From: a virus
DNA: 64,000 nucleotides
Reading direction: 5' to 3' (one strand)
Virus record (IMG/VR): IMGVR_UViG_3300025276_000032
Span: 1-64,000 of that record
The position numbers were made by a program, and so were the translations under genes. Positions 3,349 to 63,616 of the stretch are shown one piece after another. Within the stretch, counting starts at the first letter, position 1; each line of letters begins with the position of its first letter. A model generated the notes under the pieces. That model worked only from the letters and a program-made list of their open reading frames with translations. It was not told where the DNA came from and ran no database searches.

Positions 3349-3401
3349 TCAAGTGATTCTGTTTCTATGACTAAACTAGCATATTCTAACAGCTTTGTCA
3401 A
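3349..3401 (-). promoter_or_regulatory. Early promoter cassette, copy 3
   Basis: TTGACA, 14 nt, TGC, TAGTTT, leader with ACAGAATCACTTG. Drives the genes from 3337 down to 1764. Confidence 0.85.
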
Positions 3402-3689: not shown

Positions 3690-3743
3690 CAAGACTGATT
3701 CTTTATCTACAACTAAACTAGCATATTCTACCCTAGTTGTCAA
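3690..3743 (-). promoter_or_regulatory. Early promoter cassette, copy 4
   Basis: TTGACA, 14 nt, TGC, TAGTTT and a leader with AAAGAATCAGT. Immediately upstream of the 88-aa gene. Confidence 0.85.
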
Positions 3744-3751
3744 GCGGTTTC

Positions 3752-4000
3752 TTATGAGTTAGAATCCATCATGTACTTTGTGTTATAGCCACCAGCGCGG
3801 TCACCCGCAGCTTTGTAGTTAAGTGAGGTTAAGCCTACTGGACCACTATATGTTTTTGAGTATGTGAGATATTTTTTGGCGACTGGCTGCGTCGGTCTTA
3901 GCCGAGCACCTTTTGCCCAGACTGCGCGTTTCCGCTTTGTGACAGTACCACCGGAATCGAGATAGTCATTTACCATTTGGTTTACATCTAGATCAGTCAT
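3752..4000 (-). CDS. Hypothetical basic early protein, 82 aa
   Basis: Starts at ATG 4000, right after the stop of the sigma-region-4 gene (TAATATG), with only a weak GGACC upstream, so it is probably translated by coupling. The product is basic in the middle (VTKRKRAVWAKGARLR) and Tyr/Gly-rich at the C-terminus. Being co-transcribed and coupled with a transcription-factor-like gene makes a role in host transcription takeover possible, but no motif shows it. Confidence 0.6.
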   Translation of the reverse strand: MTDLDVNQMVNDYLDSGGTVTKRKRAVWAKGARLRPTQPVAKKYLTYSKTYSGPVGLTSLNYKAAGDRAGGYNTKYMMDSNS

Positions 4001-4001
4001 A

Positions 4002-4289
4002 TTATTGGTCCAAATATGTGCGAAGCAAACGGCTTCTGCTAGGGTGCTTCAACATTCTCAAAGCTTTGTCTTGGATTTGACGTATACGCTCTGGAGCTAA
4101 ATTCATAAGTACGCCGACTTGAGCCAGTGTCATTTTTTCTTCTGAGAGAAATCCGAAACGTGCTTTCAGAACCAAACGCATTTGATCTGGCAAAGTATCA
4201 AGAACAGTGGATACATCTTCAGAAAAATTCATCTTATCGACATTCATTTCATAAGAAACATCATTTAATTGTACAAATTCGATAGTCAT
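4002..4289 (-). CDS. Stand-alone sigma-70 region 4 protein, 95 aa
   Basis: Residues ~30-95 match the C-terminal domain 4 of the bacterial primary sigma factor: MTLAQVGVLMNL as the first helix, APERIRQIQDKALRMLKHPS as the recognition helix and tail, and RSRLLRTYLDQ at the end. By eye roughly half of the positions agree with E. coli RpoD as I remember it, including the ERIRQ residues that touch the -35 box; the arginine before that E is proline here. Sigma regions 1-3 are absent. In sigma-70, region 4 binds the beta-flap of RNA polymerase and TTGACA. Start ATG 4289 has AAAGGG in the leader of promoter copy 5. It may compete with host sigma, act like T4 gp33 (a beta-flap-binding sigma-4 mimic), or activate the phage's own TTGACA promoters. 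Confidence 0.85.
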   Translation of the reverse strand: MTIEFVQLNDVSYEMNVDKMNFSEDVSTVLDTLPDQMRLVLKARFGFLSEEKMTLAQVGVLMNLAPERIRQIQDKALRMLKHPSRSRLLRTYLDQ

Positions 4290-4301: not shown

Positions 4302-4354
4302 TCAAGTGATTCTTTTTCTATGACTAACCTAGCATAATACTCCTATAATGTCAA
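4302..4354 (-). promoter_or_regulatory. Early promoter cassette, copy 5
   Basis: TTGACA, 14 nt, TGC, TAGGTT, leader with AAAGAATCACTTGAAAGGG. It drives the sigma-region-4 gene. The TGA stop of the upstream gene is inside the -35 box. Confidence 0.85.
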
Positions 4355-14099: not shown

Positions 14100-14343
14100 T
14101 GATATACTCCAGCAATTCTTTGTTAGATGTTTCAAGGACAATCAAGTGACCGAAATACTTTTCGAAAACTCTGACCAATTTGAAATAGTCTGTTCCAGCA
14201 CACATTTCAGACATGATAGGTGATGCCCTCAAACCCATTGAATGTGCATATTGCTTTGCAATACTCATTAAGTAGAAGGCATTCCCATCAGGACCATCAA
14301 GATTTATCACTGTCTCGGAAGCAGGTGTGATCCCTCTAATCAT
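14086..14343 (-). CDS. Conserved phage-type protein, 85 aa
   Basis: ATG 14343 (MIRGITPASETVINLDGPDG) has CGGAGT upstream and overlaps the previous stop as ATGA. The phrase INLDGPDGNAFYLM looks like a conserved small phage family of unknown function. Soluble alpha/beta. Confidence 0.65.
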   Translation of the reverse strand: MIRGITPASETVINLDGPDGNAFYLMSIAKQYAHSMGLRASPIMSEMCAGTDYFKLVRVFEKYFGHLIVLETSNKELLEYINADK

Positions 14344-14480
14344 TTTTTTACTCCGTAAACACTTCTGTAAACTTCTTCCGCATCTTTCCAAGCATGACGC
14401 ATTCCGATAACATATCCTATAGCTCCACTGAAAAGCATTACACCAAGAAGGATGATAGCTTGAACAAATTCTACAGTCAT
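14340..14480 (-). CDS. Small single-pass membrane protein, 46 aa
   Basis: ATG 14480 with GGAGAATAAT. An N-terminal hydrophobic helix (VQAIILLGVMLFSGAIGYVI) is followed by a charged cytoplasmic tail. Coupled both sides (ATGA overlap downstream). Function unknown. Confidence 0.6.
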   Translation of the reverse strand: MTVEFVQAIILLGVMLFSGAIGYVIGMRHAWKDAEEVYRSVYGVKK

Positions 14481-14481
14481 A

Positions 14482-14727
14482 TTATTCTCCAAAATTAACT
14501 AAAAGATCATTACCCGCAGCAATTGTCATACCATCATACTCAGTTTCATACACGCCATTTTGTGGCTCACAATAAGGATTAACTACCCTATCTTGTTCTA
14601 TAGCCCAGTCTTGTACCATTGAAGCAGATTGTTCACTTTGAACGTCTGGTGCATGAATGCGTAGAAGCTCATTAACGATTGCAGACTTTATTACAATTAC
14701 TGGCTGTGGTGTGTTTGAGTCGATCAT
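14482..14727 (-). CDS. Hypothetical early protein, 81 aa
   Basis: ATG 14727 (MIDSNTPQPVIVIKSA) with AAAGGG in the promoter leader; upstream in-frame sequence is promoter. Acidic, no recognised motif. Confidence 0.6.
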   Translation of the reverse strand: MIDSNTPQPVIVIKSAIVNELLRIHAPDVQSEQSASMVQDWAIEQDRVVNPYCEPQNGVYETEYDGMTIAAGNDLLVNFGE

Positions 14728-14740
14728 AATATGAACCCTT

Positions 14741-14793
14741 TCAAGTGATTCTGTTTCTACAACTAATGTAGCATATTCTACCAGCTTTGTCAA
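14741..14793 (-). promoter_or_regulatory. Early promoter cassette, copy 11
   Basis: TTGACA, 14 nt, TGC, TACATT, leader with ACAGAATCACTTG. The TGA of the upstream gene is inside the -35 box. Confidence 0.85.
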
Positions 14794-15020
14794 CCTTTTT
14801 TAGTGGTTTTTACAATATCAGATACGATTTTTATTGCAAAGTCAACTTCATCCTCGTCAAGAGGACCTAGCTTTCCAGCATATGCATCACCGATCAATTT
14901 GTCGATGATTTGTTCTTTGTTGATTTTTGGCAAGTGATAGCCGTTTAGAATTGCGTGAACAGCAATTTCGTCAGCGCCCATATATTCTGGACCCATATCA
15001 AAATTAAACTCAAGTTTCAT
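14790..15020 (-). CDS. Hypothetical acidic early protein, 76 aa
   Basis: ATG 15020 has AAGGAGTG upstream. Helical acidic protein (MKLEFNFDMGPEYMGADEIA...). No family recognised. Confidence 0.6.
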   Translation of the reverse strand: MKLEFNFDMGPEYMGADEIAVHAILNGYHLPKINKEQIIDKLIGDAYAGKLGPLDEDEVDFAIKIVSDIVKTTKKG

Positions 15021-15031
15021 GTTAGCACTCC

Positions 15032-15217
15032 TTAACTTTTAGTTACAGCAGGACAGTCCTTCTGCATTTCAATTTTAAAGAAAGAGTTCATATCGTCCAA
15101 TTTTTCATAATATGATTCAGCTTGCTGATAGTTAAAACCTGCTGCCCATTCGGACAGTTTAATTTCTCCATCAACGTCATTATATGCCTTTACAGACCAG
15201 TACATTCTTTCACTCAT
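15032..15217 (-). CDS. Hypothetical early protein, 61 aa
   Basis: ATG 15217 with AAGGAGTT. Tyr/Trp-rich small protein (MSERMYWSVKAYNDVDGEIK...) resembling small beta-hairpin proteins, not identified. First gene behind promoter copy 12. Confidence 0.6.
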   Translation of the reverse strand: MSERMYWSVKAYNDVDGEIKLSEWAAGFNYQQAESYYEKLDDMNSFFKIEMQKDCPAVTKS

Positions 15218-15240: not shown

Positions 15241-15292
15241 TAGTGATTCTCTTGACTAAAGCTAGAATAACACAAAATGACGCTGTTGTCAA
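15241..15292 (-). promoter_or_regulatory. Early promoter cassette, copy 12
   Basis: TTGACA, 14 nt, TGT, TATTCT, diverged leader that keeps AGAATCACTAA. Lies after a 29-aa reading frame whose stop is in the -35 box. Confidence 0.8.
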
Positions 15293-19642: not shown

Positions 19643-20461
19643 TTATAGTTTATCTAAGGCTGCAATCATTCGTGTCATCCCGATGCCGCCGCCACTTCTA
19701 GGGAAAAATTCAAATTCTAAGAATTTCTCAAGTTCATCCTCAACCCTTTGATCTCCGAATAAACTCTTAATCAAACCAGCGTATTCACCATTAGAGATTG
19801 TATGGAAGGTATCTCTCATTTGATCTTTATCAGTACTGCGTTCAGCACTACCAATTGTTTCCATGCCACCCAGAATAACATCAATCTTTCTGCTAGTACC
19901 ATCCTCATTTCTAGACATATTCCAAAAAGGGCTTGTCATTTCTGGAAATTCTGTAATCATACAAGAGCCAAACGATGATTGCATGGCTAATTCGTGTTGT
20001 GCGTCTAGTTCTGTAGATGCACTAGCCCCATAGTGTTGTTGCCATTCTCTATAAGTTTTTTCTGTGGGCTTGTCAAAACCCAGATGTTTGCATAGCTCAT
20101 ATTCCATTTCTTTCAGATCATCAATACTGCCGGGCATTTCAAATTCAAACATAGGAAAAATCGTATCATGTCTGCCTGGGATTGCATTTGGTTCTTGACG
20201 ATATGAGGTCGAGACACAAAAAAAGCCCTTTGAAGTAGGGCTTGTAAGTAATTCATGTTCTAGCCACATTTGACCTGTTTGAGGCAATGGCCACGTCTGA
20301 TTTTCATATTGATAAGTTGCTACATTTTCGGGGTCTTCACATGCAGCTAAAATACTTAATCTATTTTGAGTATGTACTTCCTCAAAGCCTTTATTTAAAA
20401 AAAAGTCCCTAAGGAGGGACACTGCATTAGTAAATTTTTTAGGATCAATTAGTTGAGTCAT
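19643..20461 (-). CDS. Free-standing class II Asp/Asn-tRNA-synthetase-like catalytic core, 272 aa
   Basis: Motif 2 is SYRQEP with R88 and E90 followed by GRHDTIFPMFEFE; motif 3 is GGGIGMTR with R264; VILGGMETIGSAER matches the AsnRS/AspRS active site. There is no N-terminal anticodon-binding OB domain: the protein is only the catalytic domain, as in archaeal asparagine synthetase-like AS-AR, AsnA or EpmA. It lies directly upstream of the GTT tRNA. It could charge that tRNA, make asparagine, or attach an amino acid to a glycan or protein. ATG 20461 has a weak GAGAAAG. Confidence 0.8.
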   Translation of the reverse strand: MTQLIDPKKFTNAVSLLRDFFLNKGFEEVHTQNRLSILAACEDPENVATYQYENQTWPLPQTGQMWLEHELLTSPTSKGFFCVSTSYRQEPNAIPGRHDTIFPMFEFEMPGSIDDLKEMEYELCKHLGFDKPTEKTYREWQQHYGASASTELDAQHELAMQSSFGSCMITEFPEMTSPFWNMSRNEDGTSRKIDVILGGMETIGSAERSTDKDQMRDTFHTISNGEYAGLIKSLFGDQRVEDELEKFLEFEFFPRSGGGIGMTRMIAALDKL

Positions 20462-20568: not shown

Positions 20569-21627
20569 TTAATCTGGGAATCGAGCAGTGATTCCTTCGA
20601 CATAATAGCTCATACTATTCAATTCGCCGTCCGTAGCTACTTTTCCAGCTGCAATACGAACTTCACCCGCTTGATCTTTGATTGGTCCAGTGAAAGCAAA
20701 ATATTCACCATCACGAATCTGGTGCATAATATCAGTTGCAATAACACGAACTTCATCTGGCATATTTGTGAATGGTGCCATCGCAACAACACCATCATTC
20801 ATATGACCAAAATAGTCCTCACTCTCCCAATTACCATCAATTACAGCCTGTACTTTACGAATATAGTAAGGTGCCCAGTTATCAATAGTAGCAGTTAGCT
20901 GCGATTTAGGTGCAACAGCAATTTGATCTGATGCTTGACCAAAGCCGTGTTTACCTTGTTGTTCTGCAGCTTGGAGTGGCGCAGGAGAATCTGTATGTTG
21001 TGCTATCATATCGCAACCTTGGGACATGAGGGCTTTAGCAGCATCCGATTCTTTACCAGGATTGAACCAAGTATTTACCCATACAATATCCATATCTACA
21101 TCAGGATTCATACTACGAGCACCCATAAAGAATGTATTAATTTCACGGATAACTTCTGGAATTGGGAACGCTCCAATATAACAAATCTTGTTCGATTTAG
21201 TCATTAAACCAGCAATCACGCCCTGAACGTGTCTAGCTTGGTATAGACGCAATCCATAGCTTGACATATTTGCAGCCTGCTTATACCCAGTGGCATGCTC
21301 AAACTTAACATTTGGATAACGATTAGCCATCTTCAATGTCGCGTCCATATATCCAAATGATGTTGTGAAGATAATATCTGCACCTCTTAGTACCATACCA
21401 TTAATTACACGCTCTGCATCAGGACCCTCTTTAACACTTTCGACAAAAAATGTTTCGACTTGATCACCAAAATGTGCTTCTACATCTTGTCTGCCAATGT
21501 CGTGACGATATGTCCATCCGCCATCACCAGTCGGTCCGACATATACGAACCCCACTTTAACTTTATCCCCAGCCCATGCGCTTGTCGCTAACATAGCCGC
21601 TGCTACGATTGTTAAAAGTTTTTTCAT
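20569..21627 (-). CDS. BMP-family (PnrA/Med-like) ABC-transporter substrate-binding protein, 352 aa
   Basis: A signal peptide (MKKLLTIVAAAMLATSAWAG) precedes VKVGFVYVGPTGDGGWTYRH, the hallmark of the basic-membrane-protein family of periplasmic binding proteins, which bind nucleosides or purines. Full family length, with no damage visible. No permease or ATPase gene is near, so it would work with a host transporter. It looks host-derived, an unusual auxiliary gene for a phage. Start ATG 21627 with AAAGGTC. Confidence 0.85.
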   Translation of the reverse strand: MKKLLTIVAAAMLATSAWAGDKVKVGFVYVGPTGDGGWTYRHDIGRQDVEAHFGDQVETFFVESVKEGPDAERVINGMVLRGADIIFTTSFGYMDATLKMANRYPNVKFEHATGYKQAANMSSYGLRLYQARHVQGVIAGLMTKSNKICYIGAFPIPEVIREINTFFMGARSMNPDVDMDIVWVNTWFNPGKESDAAKALMSQGCDMIAQHTDSPAPLQAAEQQGKHGFGQASDQIAVAPKSQLTATIDNWAPYYIRKVQAVIDGNWESEDYFGHMNDGVVAMAPFTNMPDEVRVIATDIMHQIRDGEYFAFTGPIKDQAGEVRIAAGKVATDGELNSMSYYVEGITARFPD

Positions 21628-50762: not shown

Positions 50763-50814
50763 CAAGTGATTCTGTTTCTATGACTAATCTAGCATAAACA
50801 GAACCACTTGTCAA
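50763..50814 (-). promoter_or_regulatory. Early promoter cassette, copy 15
   Basis: TTGACA, 14 nt, TGC, TAGATT, leader with ACAGAATCACTTGAAAGGG, almost identical to the copies at 3.4-14.8 kb. Confidence 0.85.
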
Positions 50815-56947: not shown

Positions 56948-57353
56948 TTTTAGCAGACCTCTCTTTTTCAGTAAATTCAGCGCCTGACATTAACTCAAAA
57001 CATCTATTAGATTTAACTGTAGCTTTATTTATTACTCTTTCTACAAGGGCAGGTTTTACTGCGCCTAGCATGCCCATGTCATGTTGTTCTATCTTTTTTT
57101 CTAAAATCTTGTTCCTAGTTCGTGTTCTACGCAATTCTTTATTCGTTGTATTTAGCTCGGCATTAACTGCTTGAACATTCTTTTCCATAGTCTTGATCGT
57201 TTCGGTCTGCGTTTGAACAGCCATTTCTAATTTGGCATTATTCTCTTTTAACAACTCTATTTTATCTTGCATGTTATTCCATGTAGCATAAGCCCCGTAT
57301 CCTATTGAGGATACGAGACCTATCAGAAATATCATTACATATATTTTAAGCAT
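56847..57353 (-). CDS. Inner-membrane spanin (Rz-like), 168 aa
   Basis: One N-terminal TM helix (MLKIYVMIFLIGLVSSIGYG) and a long periplasmic coiled coil (about residues 28-95). This is the classic i-spanin layout, partly overlapping an Rz1-like lipoprotein gene. It overlaps the 883-aa gene by 1 nt. Confidence 0.75.
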   Translation of the reverse strand: MLKIYVMIFLIGLVSSIGYGAYATWNNMQDKIELLKENNAKLEMAVQTQTETIKTMEKNVQAVNAELNTTNKELRRTRTRNKILEKKIEQHDMGMLGAVKPALVERVINKATVKSNRCFELMSGAEFTEKERSAKNAKSFNSECPWLYDDFITSGRLLIVREESTTAD

Positions 57354-60004
57354 TATTTTTTCATCATACTTTTAAACGATTTCAAAACAGTTTTTCCTTC
57401 TTTAGTCTGTTTTGTATATCTTTTGTCTGTAACATCAATCAGTTTAGGTCTACGCATTAATTTTTCGTGACCAATAGGGAAGTTGCCGTGGGAAGCTACG
57501 TTACCTGTATTATTTGCAGGAACATCCTCACTTACAGATTCTTTAAAATCTTTTGCAGTAGCTCCATGTTTAGAAATAAGGTTTGTTTTTGCTGCAGATG
57601 ATATCCATTTAATATCAGCCTTTGCAACTTTCATAAGAGCTTCTTTATCAAACTTAGCAACCATCTTACTCATTTTCATTGCTTGATCTAAAGGAAGTCT
57701 ATCTGGCATACTTGAGTATTGTTTTTTCAACATAGCGATTTGCTTTGGCGAAACACTCTCAATAATCACTTTTTCATCAAGGTTACTTTGATGCAGATTT
57801 TTCATTGCACCGATAACTTCATCTACAGAATCACAAAATTCCTGTAGTTTTGGTAGGTCTTCTTTTCCATGTGGATTTTTCTTATCTTCGGCAGCCTTGT
57901 ATGCGTGAGTCTCATAAGTACCAAGGGCCAATTCTAATTTCTCAAATGTAAGTTTATCAGGACTACCTTTCAACAAAGCAGATAGTTTCTTTGCATGATT
58001 TTGACCAGAATTACTTATCTCACGAATATTAGGCACAGATTTAACTTTTTTCCAAGCCTGTGCCAACTTTTTATCATAAACTGATTCATCAAGTTCAACA
58101 GATTCATCCATTTTTTTCTTAGCGTCCTTAACAGATTTTCTCACAAGCGGTTCCACAGAAGAAATGAAATCACTCCAACTGATTCCACTTTTTTCAAACT
58201 CATCCTTAATCATTTTTTTCAAAGTCTGCATCTGTTTTTTATCTGGACCATCTTTTGTATTTGTAATACTTTTTGAATACTTGATGATATCTTTGTTTTT
58301 CCCAATCATTTCCAAAGCTTCTGGATACTTTTTCTGCATAGTCTTGAGAGTTGCCTTATCACTGATTAAATCTAAAATACTATTTTCTCTGCGTGGGCGG
58401 GCAGTCCAACCAGCAGACTTTTTCCTACTGGCACCTATTTCTCCGCCGATAATTGCACCCATTAATGTCGTTGCAGCAACTTTTATAAGTGTAGAGGCAA
58501 TAAATCCTAGTCCAATTGCGCCGAATACTTCATCAAGTTCAACAGATTCGTTCATTTTCAACCATTTTGGATCTGTTCTCTTTGGAGCACTGTAATCAAT
58601 ATTTTTTCTTTTGACCATGACTCTACCGCGCTTTATTACATCTACTGGGTCATTTGTCTTAACATTGTATCCAGAAGCCCACATATAGTCTTGTATTTTA
58701 TCTGCTACTTCTTCCCAAACATCATAAAGTTTGACTACTGTACTTCCATGCCGTTTATCGACTTCGGGATTGTCATTGAGATAATCATCTATAGATAAGT
58801 ACCAATCATTCAATGCTCTATACAAATCTTTTGGAGTCATTTTTTCAATTGGTGTCTTGCGAAATGAAGTCAACCTAGTCATCTTGCCGCCTAGAGGTTT
58901 TACTTTTTTCATTAAACCATCAATCAATTTTAATTTTCTATTAATATCTGTAGATATTTTAGTTTGTTCTGTTTTTCCAGAATTTTTCTTTTTCATATTT
59001 TTGCCTAGAATGGCGTCCATGAAACCTTCATTAACAGATTCTTTATGTACAGAAAAATGTGGTCCATCTTTGTGTGGAAATGGCTGACTATCTAAATGTT
59101 TTGACAAACTATCAGATCCTTCAGATGCCATGTCACCTTTAAGGAGCCGGTGTTTTGTTTTTACTAGATAGTAAGAATCTGGCGCATTTTTATGATTTTT
59201 CCATTTCATTCCATCAGCCTTTGTCTGAAAGTGAGTTAAAACCTCATGTTCTAAATCAAATGCGATAAAGTTTTCATCAAGTTCTACAGATTCATTCATT
59301 TTCAACCATTCTGAATCTGTTCTCTTTTTAGCGGGGAAACCTATCTTTGCCATCTGACCGATTCCCTTAATATCATATCCAGAAGCCCACATATAGTCAC
59401 TTAGTTTAAATCCAACTTCTTCCCAAAGTTCATAAAGGTCTTCTACTGAACGTCCATACTTTTTCTTTAAAGCGTCACTATCATCGCCATAGTCTAATTC
59501 ATCTTCTACAGAATGATACCAATCGTTCAATGCTATGTACATACCTTTTGGAGTCATTTTTGCCAGCGGAAGTCTACGAAATGCCATCAATCTTCCAAGC
59601 TGACCGCCTAGTGGTCCCACTTTTTTCATTAAACCATCAATCAATTTTAATTTTCTATTTATTTCTGCAGCTAATTTAACTTGTTCTGCATTATCAGGTT
59701 TTTTTACTTTTTTCTGAAGTTTTTTTGCAGGCTTTCCTTTTGCGCCGGGCACTAATTGTTTTATAGTGTCCATAAAACCTTCATTAACAGATTTGTTGGC
59801 TCTTGAAATGCCTTTGACACGATTTATAAAATCTCTTTTATTCTTATCTGATCTATCTTGATACATCTTTGCATCCTTTCCTGTAGACGCTTTTGCTGCA
59901 TCTGAATAATTATCTGCATATTTTTTTGTGGGCACTAAACTTCTTGTAGCCGCTTTGGAATAATCAGCCTTAGTTTTTGGTGATAACTCGTTTAATTTTT
60001 TCAT
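57353..60004 (-). CDS. Modular 883-aa protein joined by ESVELDE-type linkers
   Basis: Domains are separated by near-identical linkers: SVNEGFMD near residues 74 and 325, ESVELDE near 242, 488 and 636, and ESV near 750 and 823. LDE matches the T4 prohead-protease rule (L/I)xE. Two domains are duplicates: INRKLKLIDGLMKKV... near 114 and 347, ~125 aa each. A glycine-rich membrane-like stretch lies near 495-530. Probably a virion or head-internal protein cut during maturation. Basic throughout. The two neighbouring genes are also late-type. Confidence 0.7.
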   Translation of the reverse strand: MKKLNELSPKTKADYSKAATRSLVPTKKYADNYSDAAKASTGKDAKMYQDRSDKNKRDFINRVKGISRANKSVNEGFMDTIKQLVPGAKGKPAKKLQKKVKKPDNAEQVKLAAEINRKLKLIDGLMKKVGPLGGQLGRLMAFRRLPLAKMTPKGMYIALNDWYHSVEDELDYGDDSDALKKKYGRSVEDLYELWEEVGFKLSDYMWASGYDIKGIGQMAKIGFPAKKRTDSEWLKMNESVELDENFIAFDLEHEVLTHFQTKADGMKWKNHKNAPDSYYLVKTKHRLLKGDMASEGSDSLSKHLDSQPFPHKDGPHFSVHKESVNEGFMDAILGKNMKKKNSGKTEQTKISTDINRKLKLIDGLMKKVKPLGGKMTRLTSFRKTPIEKMTPKDLYRALNDWYLSIDDYLNDNPEVDKRHGSTVVKLYDVWEEVADKIQDYMWASGYNVKTNDPVDVIKRGRVMVKRKNIDYSAPKRTDPKWLKMNESVELDEVFGAIGLGFIASTLIKVAATTLMGAIIGGEIGASRKKSAGWTARPRRENSILDLISDKATLKTMQKKYPEALEMIGKNKDIIKYSKSITNTKDGPDKKQMQTLKKMIKDEFEKSGISWSDFISSVEPLVRKSVKDAKKKMDESVELDESVYDKKLAQAWKKVKSVPNIREISNSGQNHAKKLSALLKGSPDKLTFEKLELALGTYETHAYKAAEDKKNPHGKEDLPKLQEFCDSVDEVIGAMKNLHQSNLDEKVIIESVSPKQIAMLKKQYSSMPDRLPLDQAMKMSKMVAKFDKEALMKVAKADIKWISSAAKTNLISKHGATAKDFKESVSEDVPANNTGNVASHGNFPIGHEKLMRRPKLIDVTDKRYTKQTKEGKTVLKSFKSMMKK

Positions 60005-60985: not shown

Positions 60986-63616
60986 TTAAGTGCCTTTTCT
61001 TACGATATTAGCGTCACCATCATCTGTATCGTTATGTCTTTTAGGACCTTCTGATGTAGAATTTGCAATGGTTTCATGTGTTTTAGCTACAACTACAGGA
61101 CCATTGACAAAATCGTAAACTTCTGCTTTTTCTGGGCTATGCATTGCAACAAAATCAGCTTCAGTCATACCAGTACCACTAGGAGCAACTCTATCAACAC
61201 GACGATTTGCTACTTGATCTTTCCAAGTGTCTGTAGTCTCTGCATCTTCTTTTATTTTTTGCATAAGATACGAATTTTTCTTTTCCGAAATACCTTCAAC
61301 AGACGTTTTTGGAGTAAATTTAATCTTATCTAAAAAACTTTCTTCTACATTAGTATTAAGGTCAACGGATTCACCTCTATTTGCAAATGCTCTGAATTTT
61401 GCAGGACTTTTTTGATTCGGCTCTTTATGCGTCATTTTCTTTGCTTTTTTGAGATTGTCCATACCTTGCATTGCCCGATATTTGCTGGTGTAAGTGGCAG
61501 CATTGTCCTCATCTCCAGCCTTTGAAATTTCTTTAAAAACTCTATTTGTATCAGATTCCAGTTTTTCCATTGTTCTTTGATACTTTACAGAATTTCCAGT
61601 AGTTTGCATCATTTTTTCTAATTGTGTATGCATGTCTATGATTTCCTGCATCTCTACTTCTAGACGTTTAACAAATTCCTTTTGATCTGCTGGGATTTGG
61701 CGCATTGCAGGGCCACCATATTTCGGAGTTTGTGCTTTATCACCATTTCCATAAAACTTAAATCCTTTACTAAGCTCTTTTTTAGACCATGTCCACTGTT
61801 TTTTGGCTTTGCGGTGAAAATCTTCTGCTTCTTTTTTAAATTGGTCGCCACGTAAACTATCGTTTGCAGCGTCTTTACCAGCTGATGGTACTGTTGACTT
61901 TTTTACAAATCCAAGATGTTTACCTGTCATTTTTTCAAGTTTGTCTAGGACTTTATTCAATCCCTTATCGACTAGATTTGTAACAATGCCCTCTTCGAGT
62001 TCAATATTTACAGATTCTTTTACCAAGCTAGTCATGCTTGCACCCATATCACCCATTGCCATTGAAACTTTGCCGTTTCTATCATAGAGGTAATGTTTTA
62101 GTTTTGCAGCACCTTCGCCCTGTTTAACTAAAGTGATTTTTCCAACTTTAGCTTTACCAACAATAGATTTAAATGTTACTTTAAATGTTCCTTCTTGCCC
62201 TTTTGAAAGTGAAGATCCATATTTAATTTTTACTGTGTCACCTTTTTTCAGACCATCGAATGTTGATTTAAAATCTGTAGCTTCAGAAATTTGTACTGAC
62301 TCTTTCATCGGATCAACGAAATCGCCTTTTTTGATTCTACCTGCAACTTGACCCATAGAACCATGTACTACAAAATCTCCATTTGTTGCGATAGAGCTAG
62401 TATGCCCATTGCGAGTAGTTGGCATTTGTTTTTTGCCTATTGCTCTCAGCATAAGTTTATGCAGTGCTTTCGCTTGTGCGCCAGTAGCTTTAACACCTTC
62501 GAATTGCATAGATGCTTGACCACTACTTCTTTCTTTTTCAGCTTGTGCTTTTTTTGCGTATGGTTTACCTTGATTGACAAACTCACCTTTAGTCATCCGC
62601 TGTACTTGAAACTTACTATCTTTAGTTTTAATAATTCGAACTTTACCCTCTTCTGAGGCTTCATCAACTTCAACAGATTCATCCCAAGGAGCTTTCTTGA
62701 GTGATACTTTATCTTTTGGCTGGGCATCTTTGTCCGCTTTAGCTAATGCTCTGGCTTTTGCTTTTTGTGCTGCAGTCATTTTTCCTGCTGGTTTAGCTTC
62801 AGCTAAAGGATCAGCTTGGGTTCTCATAAGATCAAGAGTAGCCATAATCATATCAGGTTGTGTAGACTCTTTAACTGATTTTTCGTCAACTTTGCCTTTT
62901 TCTTTTTCTTTTTTCAAGACAGAATCTTTATCTTCCCGATCATCTTGATCGTCTCCATAATCATCGTTACAATCTTTGCAATCTGGATCATCGCATTTGC
63001 TGTGTTTTTCGTTTAGCCAGACTTCGAACATTTCTTCGGCTTCATCTAAAGTATGTCCTTCATCCATTGTAGCTAAAACAATATCTGCCTTGTGTTCAAT
63101 GGCTTCATTTTTAGTTACCCATCTTTTGGCATCTTTTTTCTTGCTAAAAATATTTGCTATATCGCCTATGATTGATCTATTTTTTCTAACTCTAGATTCG
63201 TCTACAGATTCATTTTTAGGTACACAATTAGGAACAGTCTTACCGTTTTTCTTTTTCATTCCAACCATTTCGTGACTATCCCAGCAAGGATCCTTATCTT
63301 CTGCAGTGATAGCTTTACTGACAGTTTTTCTGCGATTATCAAGATATTCGTCTGATTTATCTACATCACCGTCGTTGTCAATATCTTTATCTTTACGATC
63401 TTTGAATTTCTTTTTCAGTGCTTTAGGCTGAACTTTATCAAGTCCTTCACCATCATCGGATACTTTATTTGTATTGTCCTCTGACATGGATGGATCATCA
63501 TCTTTCATCATAGACCCATCTGGCATCCTGTGCTTGCCATTTCTTTTCTTTTCTTCTAGTGCCAACATTTGCATGTATGCGTTGGCAATGTTGTTTTGCG
63601 TGTCATTAGTGTTCAT
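60986..63616 (-). CDS. Modular 876-aa protein with EF-hand and ESV-type linkers
   Basis: An EF-hand-like DIDNDGDVDKSDEYL lies near residues 78-92. Linkers: NESVDES (~137), KESTQPD (~250), DESVEVDEA (~314), KESVQISEA (~440), KESVNIELEEG (~538), GESVDLN (~748). LAE-A, ISE-A and LEE-G fit T4 prohead-protease sites. Modules include a CDDPDCKDC cysteine cluster (~205-215) and coiled coils. Likely a late virion/prohead polyprotein like its 883-aa neighbour. ATG 63616 follows AGGAGAAAAC. Confidence 0.7.
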   Translation of the reverse strand: MNTNDTQNNIANAYMQMLALEEKKRNGKHRMPDGSMMKDDDPSMSEDNTNKVSDDGEGLDKVQPKALKKKFKDRKDKDIDNDGDVDKSDEYLDNRRKTVSKAITAEDKDPCWDSHEMVGMKKKNGKTVPNCVPKNESVDESRVRKNRSIIGDIANIFSKKKDAKRWVTKNEAIEHKADIVLATMDEGHTLDEAEEMFEVWLNEKHSKCDDPDCKDCNDDYGDDQDDREDKDSVLKKEKEKGKVDEKSVKESTQPDMIMATLDLMRTQADPLAEAKPAGKMTAAQKAKARALAKADKDAQPKDKVSLKKAPWDESVEVDEASEEGKVRIIKTKDSKFQVQRMTKGEFVNQGKPYAKKAQAEKERSSGQASMQFEGVKATGAQAKALHKLMLRAIGKKQMPTTRNGHTSSIATNGDFVVHGSMGQVAGRIKKGDFVDPMKESVQISEATDFKSTFDGLKKGDTVKIKYGSSLSKGQEGTFKVTFKSIVGKAKVGKITLVKQGEGAAKLKHYLYDRNGKVSMAMGDMGASMTSLVKESVNIELEEGIVTNLVDKGLNKVLDKLEKMTGKHLGFVKKSTVPSAGKDAANDSLRGDQFKKEAEDFHRKAKKQWTWSKKELSKGFKFYGNGDKAQTPKYGGPAMRQIPADQKEFVKRLEVEMQEIIDMHTQLEKMMQTTGNSVKYQRTMEKLESDTNRVFKEISKAGDEDNAATYTSKYRAMQGMDNLKKAKKMTHKEPNQKSPAKFRAFANRGESVDLNTNVEESFLDKIKFTPKTSVEGISEKKNSYLMQKIKEDAETTDTWKDQVANRRVDRVAPSGTGMTEADFVAMHSPEKAEVYDFVNGPVVVAKTHETIANSTSEGPKRHNDTDDGDANIVRKGT

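Follow-up and report, generated by a model that had tools for sequence, protein, structure and literature searches.

The 64,000-nucleotide stretch of viral DNA analysed here (the window), which sits in a 67,347-bp linear IMG/VR record, encodes a 95-residue protein that is a bona fide and complete sigma-70 region 4 (sigma4). The protein falls short of a complete sigma factor, as it lacks region 2, which provides core binding and -10 recognition. We tentatively propose that it acts early, as a ligand of the beta-flap of RNA polymerase that would compete with the sigma4 of the host, in function comparable to gp33, P7 or AsiA. Displacement of host region 4 from the beta-flap, one of the possibilities raised by the first-pass annotation of this DNA, is the putative mechanism that we consider the most likely. 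According to this proposal, a region 4 split off from a primary sigma, and probably expressed early by means of a host-type promoter cassette, would sit on the beta-flap tip where region 4 of the host sigma70 binds; host -35-dependent transcription would be lowered and extended -10 promoters would be less affected.

Table 1. Location of the sigma4 gene and of the surrounding features in the window.
Feature	Position	Strand	Basis or remark
Stand-alone sigma-70 region 4 protein	4002..4289	-	ORF, Pfam, PDB matches, AlphaFold2, fold match
Sigma4 fold (residues ~29-95) and linker after region 3.2 (residues 1-22)	4002..4289	-	
Promoter-plus-leader cassette of the sigma4 gene	4307..4354	-	Pattern match
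82-residue ORF	3752..4000	-	Starts 1 nt past the sigma4 stop
Next cassette, heading the 3411-3685 gene	3696..3743	-	Pattern match
Cassette heading the 3173-3352 gene	3354..3401	-	Pattern match
Cassette downstream of the rnh cluster	50767..50814	-	Site of the sigma4 gene in L002/L003

Fold, selection and phage context

The ORF called on the window begins with ATG and runs on the minus strand from 4289 to 4002. Its sole Pfam match is Sigma70_r4 (residues 29-82, E 7.9e-14, 51.4 bits against a cut-off of 24.1), with the profile covered end to end (1-50 of 50), and regions 2 and 3 are absent. The top PDB matches are primary sigma factors (SigA/RpoD), with E-values down to 8e-15. The best of these alignments is gap-free across residues 4-93, which places the beginning of the protein near the end of region 3.2 and shows that it extends through the RpoD C-terminal tail. 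The sequence looks like that of a primary sigma truncated just past region 3.2. The earlier description of the protein as sigma domain 4 and little else, with the tail of RpoD kept, was thereby confirmed.

The AlphaFold2 model comprised five helices over residues 19-94, with a pLDDT of ~80-90 in the core and low confidence for residues 1-21; the mean pLDDT was just 69.6 because the N-terminus and the last helix scored low. A comparison with the T. aquaticus (Taq) sigma4 (1rio_H) gave a Z of 9.9 and an rmsd of 1.6 over 61 residues, so that the predicted fold is that of region 4, as the annotation had supposed, and not an unrelated one.

The whole record holds one copy of sigma4. The gene was also found at 91-93% identity in two viral contigs (L002 and L003), and their comparison with the window gave a dN/dS of ~0.13-0.18, with 12-13 synonymous and 8-9 non-synonymous codon changes. 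Judged from these codon comparisons, the gene is under purifying selection. A functionless fragment of a captured rpoD that merely hitch-hikes in the phage genome would account for the patchy presence of the gene, which was not found in the 50 relative records examined (mostly fragments), and for a start that fits a primary sigma truncated after region 3.2. The observed selection and the maintenance of the gene at two genomic positions with a good promoter render this explanation very unlikely. A genome contig scan for a bacterial donor gave distant matches alone (32-48% identical).

The RNase H of the record is closest to those of Pelagibacter phage HTVC008M and the Methylophilales Melnitz phages, and its NrdB is closest to phages of Alphaproteobacteria. 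Also encoded are NrdA/NrdB-like and PhoH-like ORFs, a DUF6433 protein and a 2OG-Fe(II) oxygenase. These proteins identify the record as part of the genome of a T4-like phage, which its relatives mark as marine; the host may be an alphaproteobacterium. A search of the phage collection gave tRNA matches but no other similar DNA. Both gp33 and gp55 occur in a 151-kb relative, in HTVC008M and in Melnitz, none of which has sigma4, and this led us to reject sigma4 as a general replacement for gp33 in the clade; the presence of both T4-type factors without sigma4 in the 151-kb relative indicates that the sigma4 gene is accessory. No gp33 match was detected in the window's own record (G000), an incomplete genome, where sigma4 might still take the place of gp33.

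Several phage proteins provide the closest functional comparisons. T4 gp33 is also a small phage protein that replaces sigma4 at the flap, a role that the 95-residue protein may share; it is, however, unrelated to our protein in sequence and fold (PMC7892883, PMC2988020), and it is present in complete relatives, whereas the sigma4 gene is accessory and early-type. The structural unrelatedness of gp33 and sigma4 (PMC7892883) agrees with the annotation's statement that T4 relies on proteins unrelated to region 4. In Pfam and PHROGs, the 95-residue protein gave no gp33/Trans_coact match and matched only sigma families, while the T4 gp33 control matched PF16805 and phrog_254. Its sigma4 stretch matched phrog_36 ("transcriptional regulator") and phrog_351 (RNA polymerase sigma factor), whose profiles span 220 and 928 positions; the protein itself consists of sigma4 and a short linker. 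T4 AsiA and Xp10 P7, which are of comparable size, also come from phages and interfere with the contact between sigma4 and the beta-flap. The target of AsiA, however, is sigma4, and those of P7 are beta' and the flap; unlike the 95-residue protein, neither is itself a sigma4.

AsiA (PF09010) was not found in the window's record, the 151-kb relative, HTVC008M or Melnitz, and the T4 control was positive. This result bears on the idea that the protein serves as a decoy for a sigma4-binding protein, such as a host anti-sigma70 or the AsiA-like protein of a rival phage. Accessory genes of the early type frequently act against factors of the host or of rivals, and a free sigma4 offers the target surface of AsiA (PMC2988021). 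With AsiA missing from the relatives searched and no candidate target found, we regard a decoy as distinctly unlikely. In our tentative assessment, the sigma4 gene would be a somewhat unusual variant on a known theme, namely phage interference at the sigma4/flap contact.

Residues contacting the -35 element and the beta-flap

A study of E. coli and Rhizobium sigma factors listed 16 positions for the -35 interaction and 6 for core binding (PMC4943231). Using the numbering of the E. coli sigma sequence, verified against the PDB, we found that the 95-residue protein retains nine of the 16 -35 positions and four of the 6 core-binding positions, compared with 14 of 16 and 4-5 of 6 in three other primary sigmas. 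The changes on the -35 list are R554Q, D570K, Y571M, E574A, E575Q, T583A and R584P. The protein thus shares with RpoD/SigA region 4 the fold, the ERIRQ motif, the HPSRS tail and part of the preceding linker, and differs from these factors in having no regions 1-3 and in its changes at R554, E555, E574, E575, T583 and R584. The first-pass annotation had stated that the -35 contacts of ERIRQ were kept, which holds for the motif itself with E585, R588 and Q589 but not for seven of the 16 listed positions. It had also named the Arg before ERIRQ as the first variable position; this residue is indeed Pro (584), but R554, D570, Y571, E574, E575 and T583 are altered too.

R584 contacts the -31 base, and sigma70 R584A favours A:T at -31 (PMC2613000). 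Of the trio R584/E585/Q589 that reads the -35 element, the last two are kept and the first is lost. The altered surface suggests that the 95-residue protein itself is no TTGACA reader, and the loss of R554, T583 and R584 weakens the earlier suggestion that it blocks host -35 promoters by direct DNA binding. These changes may also reflect general drift because a control revealed no excess: five of 12 conserved contact positions are changed in the protein, against six of 16 other conserved positions.

The remaining -35 contacts might instead be put to a different use. The protein could be the altered-specificity half of a split sigma that joins RNA polymerase with a region-2 factor (gp55 or a host sigma) and reads another -35-like element, as do alternative sigmas with a changed recognition helix. 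The pattern of retained E585, R588, Q589, K593 and R596 with a changed R584 and the base preference of sigma70 R584A (PMC2613000) would suit such a role, as would gp55, which is present in relatives and has no region 4; the gp55/gp33 pair has been described as a split sigma (PMC2988020). We nevertheless judge this reading unlikely: relatives with gp55 and gp33 do without sigma4, the substitutions extend to DNA-contact residues outside the recognition helix (R554, E574, E575), the analysis turned up no promoter class that would match, and the promoter of the sigma4 gene itself is early-type.

The C-terminal helix-5 tail of the protein, KHPSRSRLLRTYLDQ, is nearly identical to that of RpoD, and this tail is a flap-contacting part of sigma4 (PMC2988021); R562, F563, G577 and L598 are likewise retained. 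The core-binding list shows two changes, E555M and the conservative I565F. E555 is invariant in 79 of 79 other short viral sigma4s and in 23 of 23 full sigmas, and its replacement by Met calls for caution with the flap model.

Promoter cassettes and a shuffling gene region

The record contains 14 cassettes that match TTGACA-N14-TGnTAnnTTAGTnnTAGAnAnAGAATCA at three or fewer mismatches, 12 of them with none, compared with zero expected by chance. All 14 have TTGACA, TGn and a C at -31, with degenerate -10 hexamers, and by their sequence they look like host-type extended -10 promoters. The annotation had counted fifteen TTGACA cassettes; 14 fit the strict pattern and the fifteenth, at 15292, is looser. 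The cassette upstream of the sigma4 gene consists of TTGACA, a 17-nt spacer ending in TGC, TAGGTT and then the conserved leader AGTnnTAGAAAnAGAATCA.

The annotation had further suggested that the protein could serve these cassettes as their -35 reader, and 14 cassettes with a perfect TTGACA in one genome are a reason to consider it. The C at -31 in all 14 cassettes, combined with the replacement of R584 by Pro, makes such a service unlikely. Moreover, a cassette drives the sigma4 gene itself, four relatives (the fragments G015, G016, G017 and G048) have the same cassette with no sigma4 in view, and the RpoD of the host ought to be enough where TTGACA is combined with an extended -10. Taken together, we give this proposal hardly any credence.

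The cassettes head small genes that differ between relatives. In L002 and L003 the sigma4 gene lies within the rnh-to-phoH cluster, downstream of rnh, the DUF6433 gene and a 71-residue gene; the cassette at this site in the window heads another gene and is ~46 kb from the window's sigma4 gene. The rnh-region slot of relatives carries the same TTGACA...AGAATCA cassette as the window, and behind it stand a homologue of the 3411-3685 gene in L024, a homologue of the 3173-3352 gene in L029 and a third, different gene in L025. As one cassette slot holds different genes in relatives, the sigma4 gene is an interchangeable, promoter-headed, early-type small-gene module. For the same reason, we do not claim positional equivalence to gene 33 (the T4 rnh-dsbA-33-59 synteny). 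T4-type phages reportedly have mobile regulatory cassettes, described by Arbiol in 2010 (cited in PMC4177764) as promoter-headed small ORFs that shuffle between positions. The promoter-headed small ORFs of the window shuffle in the same manner, but no consistent stem-loop was found beside the window's cassettes, which have a shared leader.

The 82-residue ORF just downstream is probably co-translated with sigma4. It is not adjacent to sigma4 in L002/L003 and no relative was found in viral contigs; as it is not conserved alongside sigma4, it was rejected as a partner gene.

Among the other genes of the window, 20569-21627 (-) encodes a PnrA-like (Bmp) ABC-transporter substrate-binding protein (Pfam E 1e-47) with a signal peptide-like start. 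The gene at 19643-20461 (-) encodes a 272-residue protein similar to class II aminoacyl-tRNA synthetases (tRNA-synt_2, E 8e-16), which may be a paralogue of the catalytic domain that lacks an anticodon-binding domain. Two proteins of ~880 residues (57353-60004 and 60986-63616, both on the minus strand) contain repeated ESVxLDE-like motifs and have no clear Pfam family; our guess is that they are head-protease substrates.

We return to the proposed binding of the protein to the beta-flap. This reading is favoured by the full fold, the RpoD-like tail, the purifying selection and the retention of R562, F563, G577 and L598, by the altered -35 contacts (R584, T583, R554, E574 and E575), and by the placement of the gene behind an extended -10 cassette, among other small cassette-headed genes of a shuffling region. 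It also draws on phage precedents and on the failure to find AsiA: P7 and other phage proteins target the sigma4/flap interaction (PMC3985653), gp33 acts at the flap as a sigma4 mimic, and at a -35/-10 promoter a fusion of gp55 and gp33 was a competitor of sigma70-RNAP (PMC2988020). Counting against it are E555M and I565F on the core-binding list, the failure to find the gene in most relatives, the weak binding of isolated sigma4 to the flap (PMC3985653) and the control described above, by which the loss of DNA contacts may be general drift. The analysis shows the fold and its completeness, the selection, the host-type promoter, the mobility of the module, the absence of regions 2 and 3 and the loss of R584; flap binding, competition with the host sigma and early expression are what the protein would be expected to do.

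Stand-alone sigma4 proteins in uncultured viruses

Viral contigs were sampled by the DNA of the tail (KALRKLxHP), which left the recognition helix unconstrained and yielded 114 distinct sigma4s. By our own HMM, 79 of these are complete ORFs of 400 residues or fewer without region 2; for the 75 of at most 300 residues, Pfam gave no region 2 or 3 hits, and 74 matched Sigma70_r4, some with HTH domains or an RNA polymerase alpha-CTD. A class of stand-alone sigma4 proteins in uncultured viruses is therefore real, and the counts suggest that such proteins are common. Unlike the 95-residue protein, most of the others sampled have N-terminal extensions or an HTH domain. Our searches of the open-access literature gave nothing relevant on a stand-alone phage region 4 and no account of a test of one. 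Two of the matches from a tblastn search of cultured phages, H34 and H41, proved to be full-size sigmas and were rejected; many of the remaining matches come from records that lack annotation and could be pieces of bacterial DNA.

Among the 79 stand-alone sigma4s, 44 have a substitution at one or more of positions 584, 585, 588 and 589, with position 584 counted as intact if R or K; the Pro at 584 is seen again in L287, L387 and L422. The comparison with full sigmas (0 of 23, p 3e-7) was set aside as evidence of specific -35 contact loss because these collapse into at most three clusters. Across the stand-alone set, -35-contact positions were retained at 0.778 and other conserved positions at 0.774; contact positions are lost no more than others, so a specific loss of DNA reading in the class is unproven. 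We accordingly hold it rather doubtful, though worth stating, that these proteins form a class of viral RNA polymerase ligands, widespread and so far undescribed, that evolved repeatedly from primary sigmas, with the flap contact kept and the -35 contact lost or changed, and of which the 95-residue protein would be the minimal form.

Other architectures were also observed. A second short family of ~70-95 residues (L005-L009, e.g., L007:5929-6216 (+)) has an intact RERIRQ and a tail, RSPDMVRIIIK, that differs from RpoD, and occurs in another type of phage, one that has a terminase-like gene. In L333:11097-11726 (+) and L375:3484-4320 (+), sigma region 4 is joined to the C-terminal domain of the RNA polymerase alpha subunit (Pfam E 8e-24 and 7e-21, respectively), one fusion also having an N-terminal HTH, so that two promoter-contact modules of RNA polymerase lie within one phage protein. 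L181, a T4-like contig with DNA polymerase-like and clamp-like ORFs, encodes sigma4 inside a 338-residue protein (14184-15200 (-)) that starts with MKVKDIISEA, next to a protein that starts with MRIKEITEA. Both starts resemble the capsid-targeting peptides of T4 internal proteins, and this sigma4 might therefore be packaged and injected.

AsiA, P7 and gp33 are unrelated proteins by which phages capture the sigma4/beta-flap contact. If the proposed role is true, a lone genuine sigma4 would be the most direct form of this strategy, and it would test to what extent the flap contact of sigma is separable from promoter reading. Since stand-alone sigma4s are apparently common, a simple binding screen could cover the whole class.
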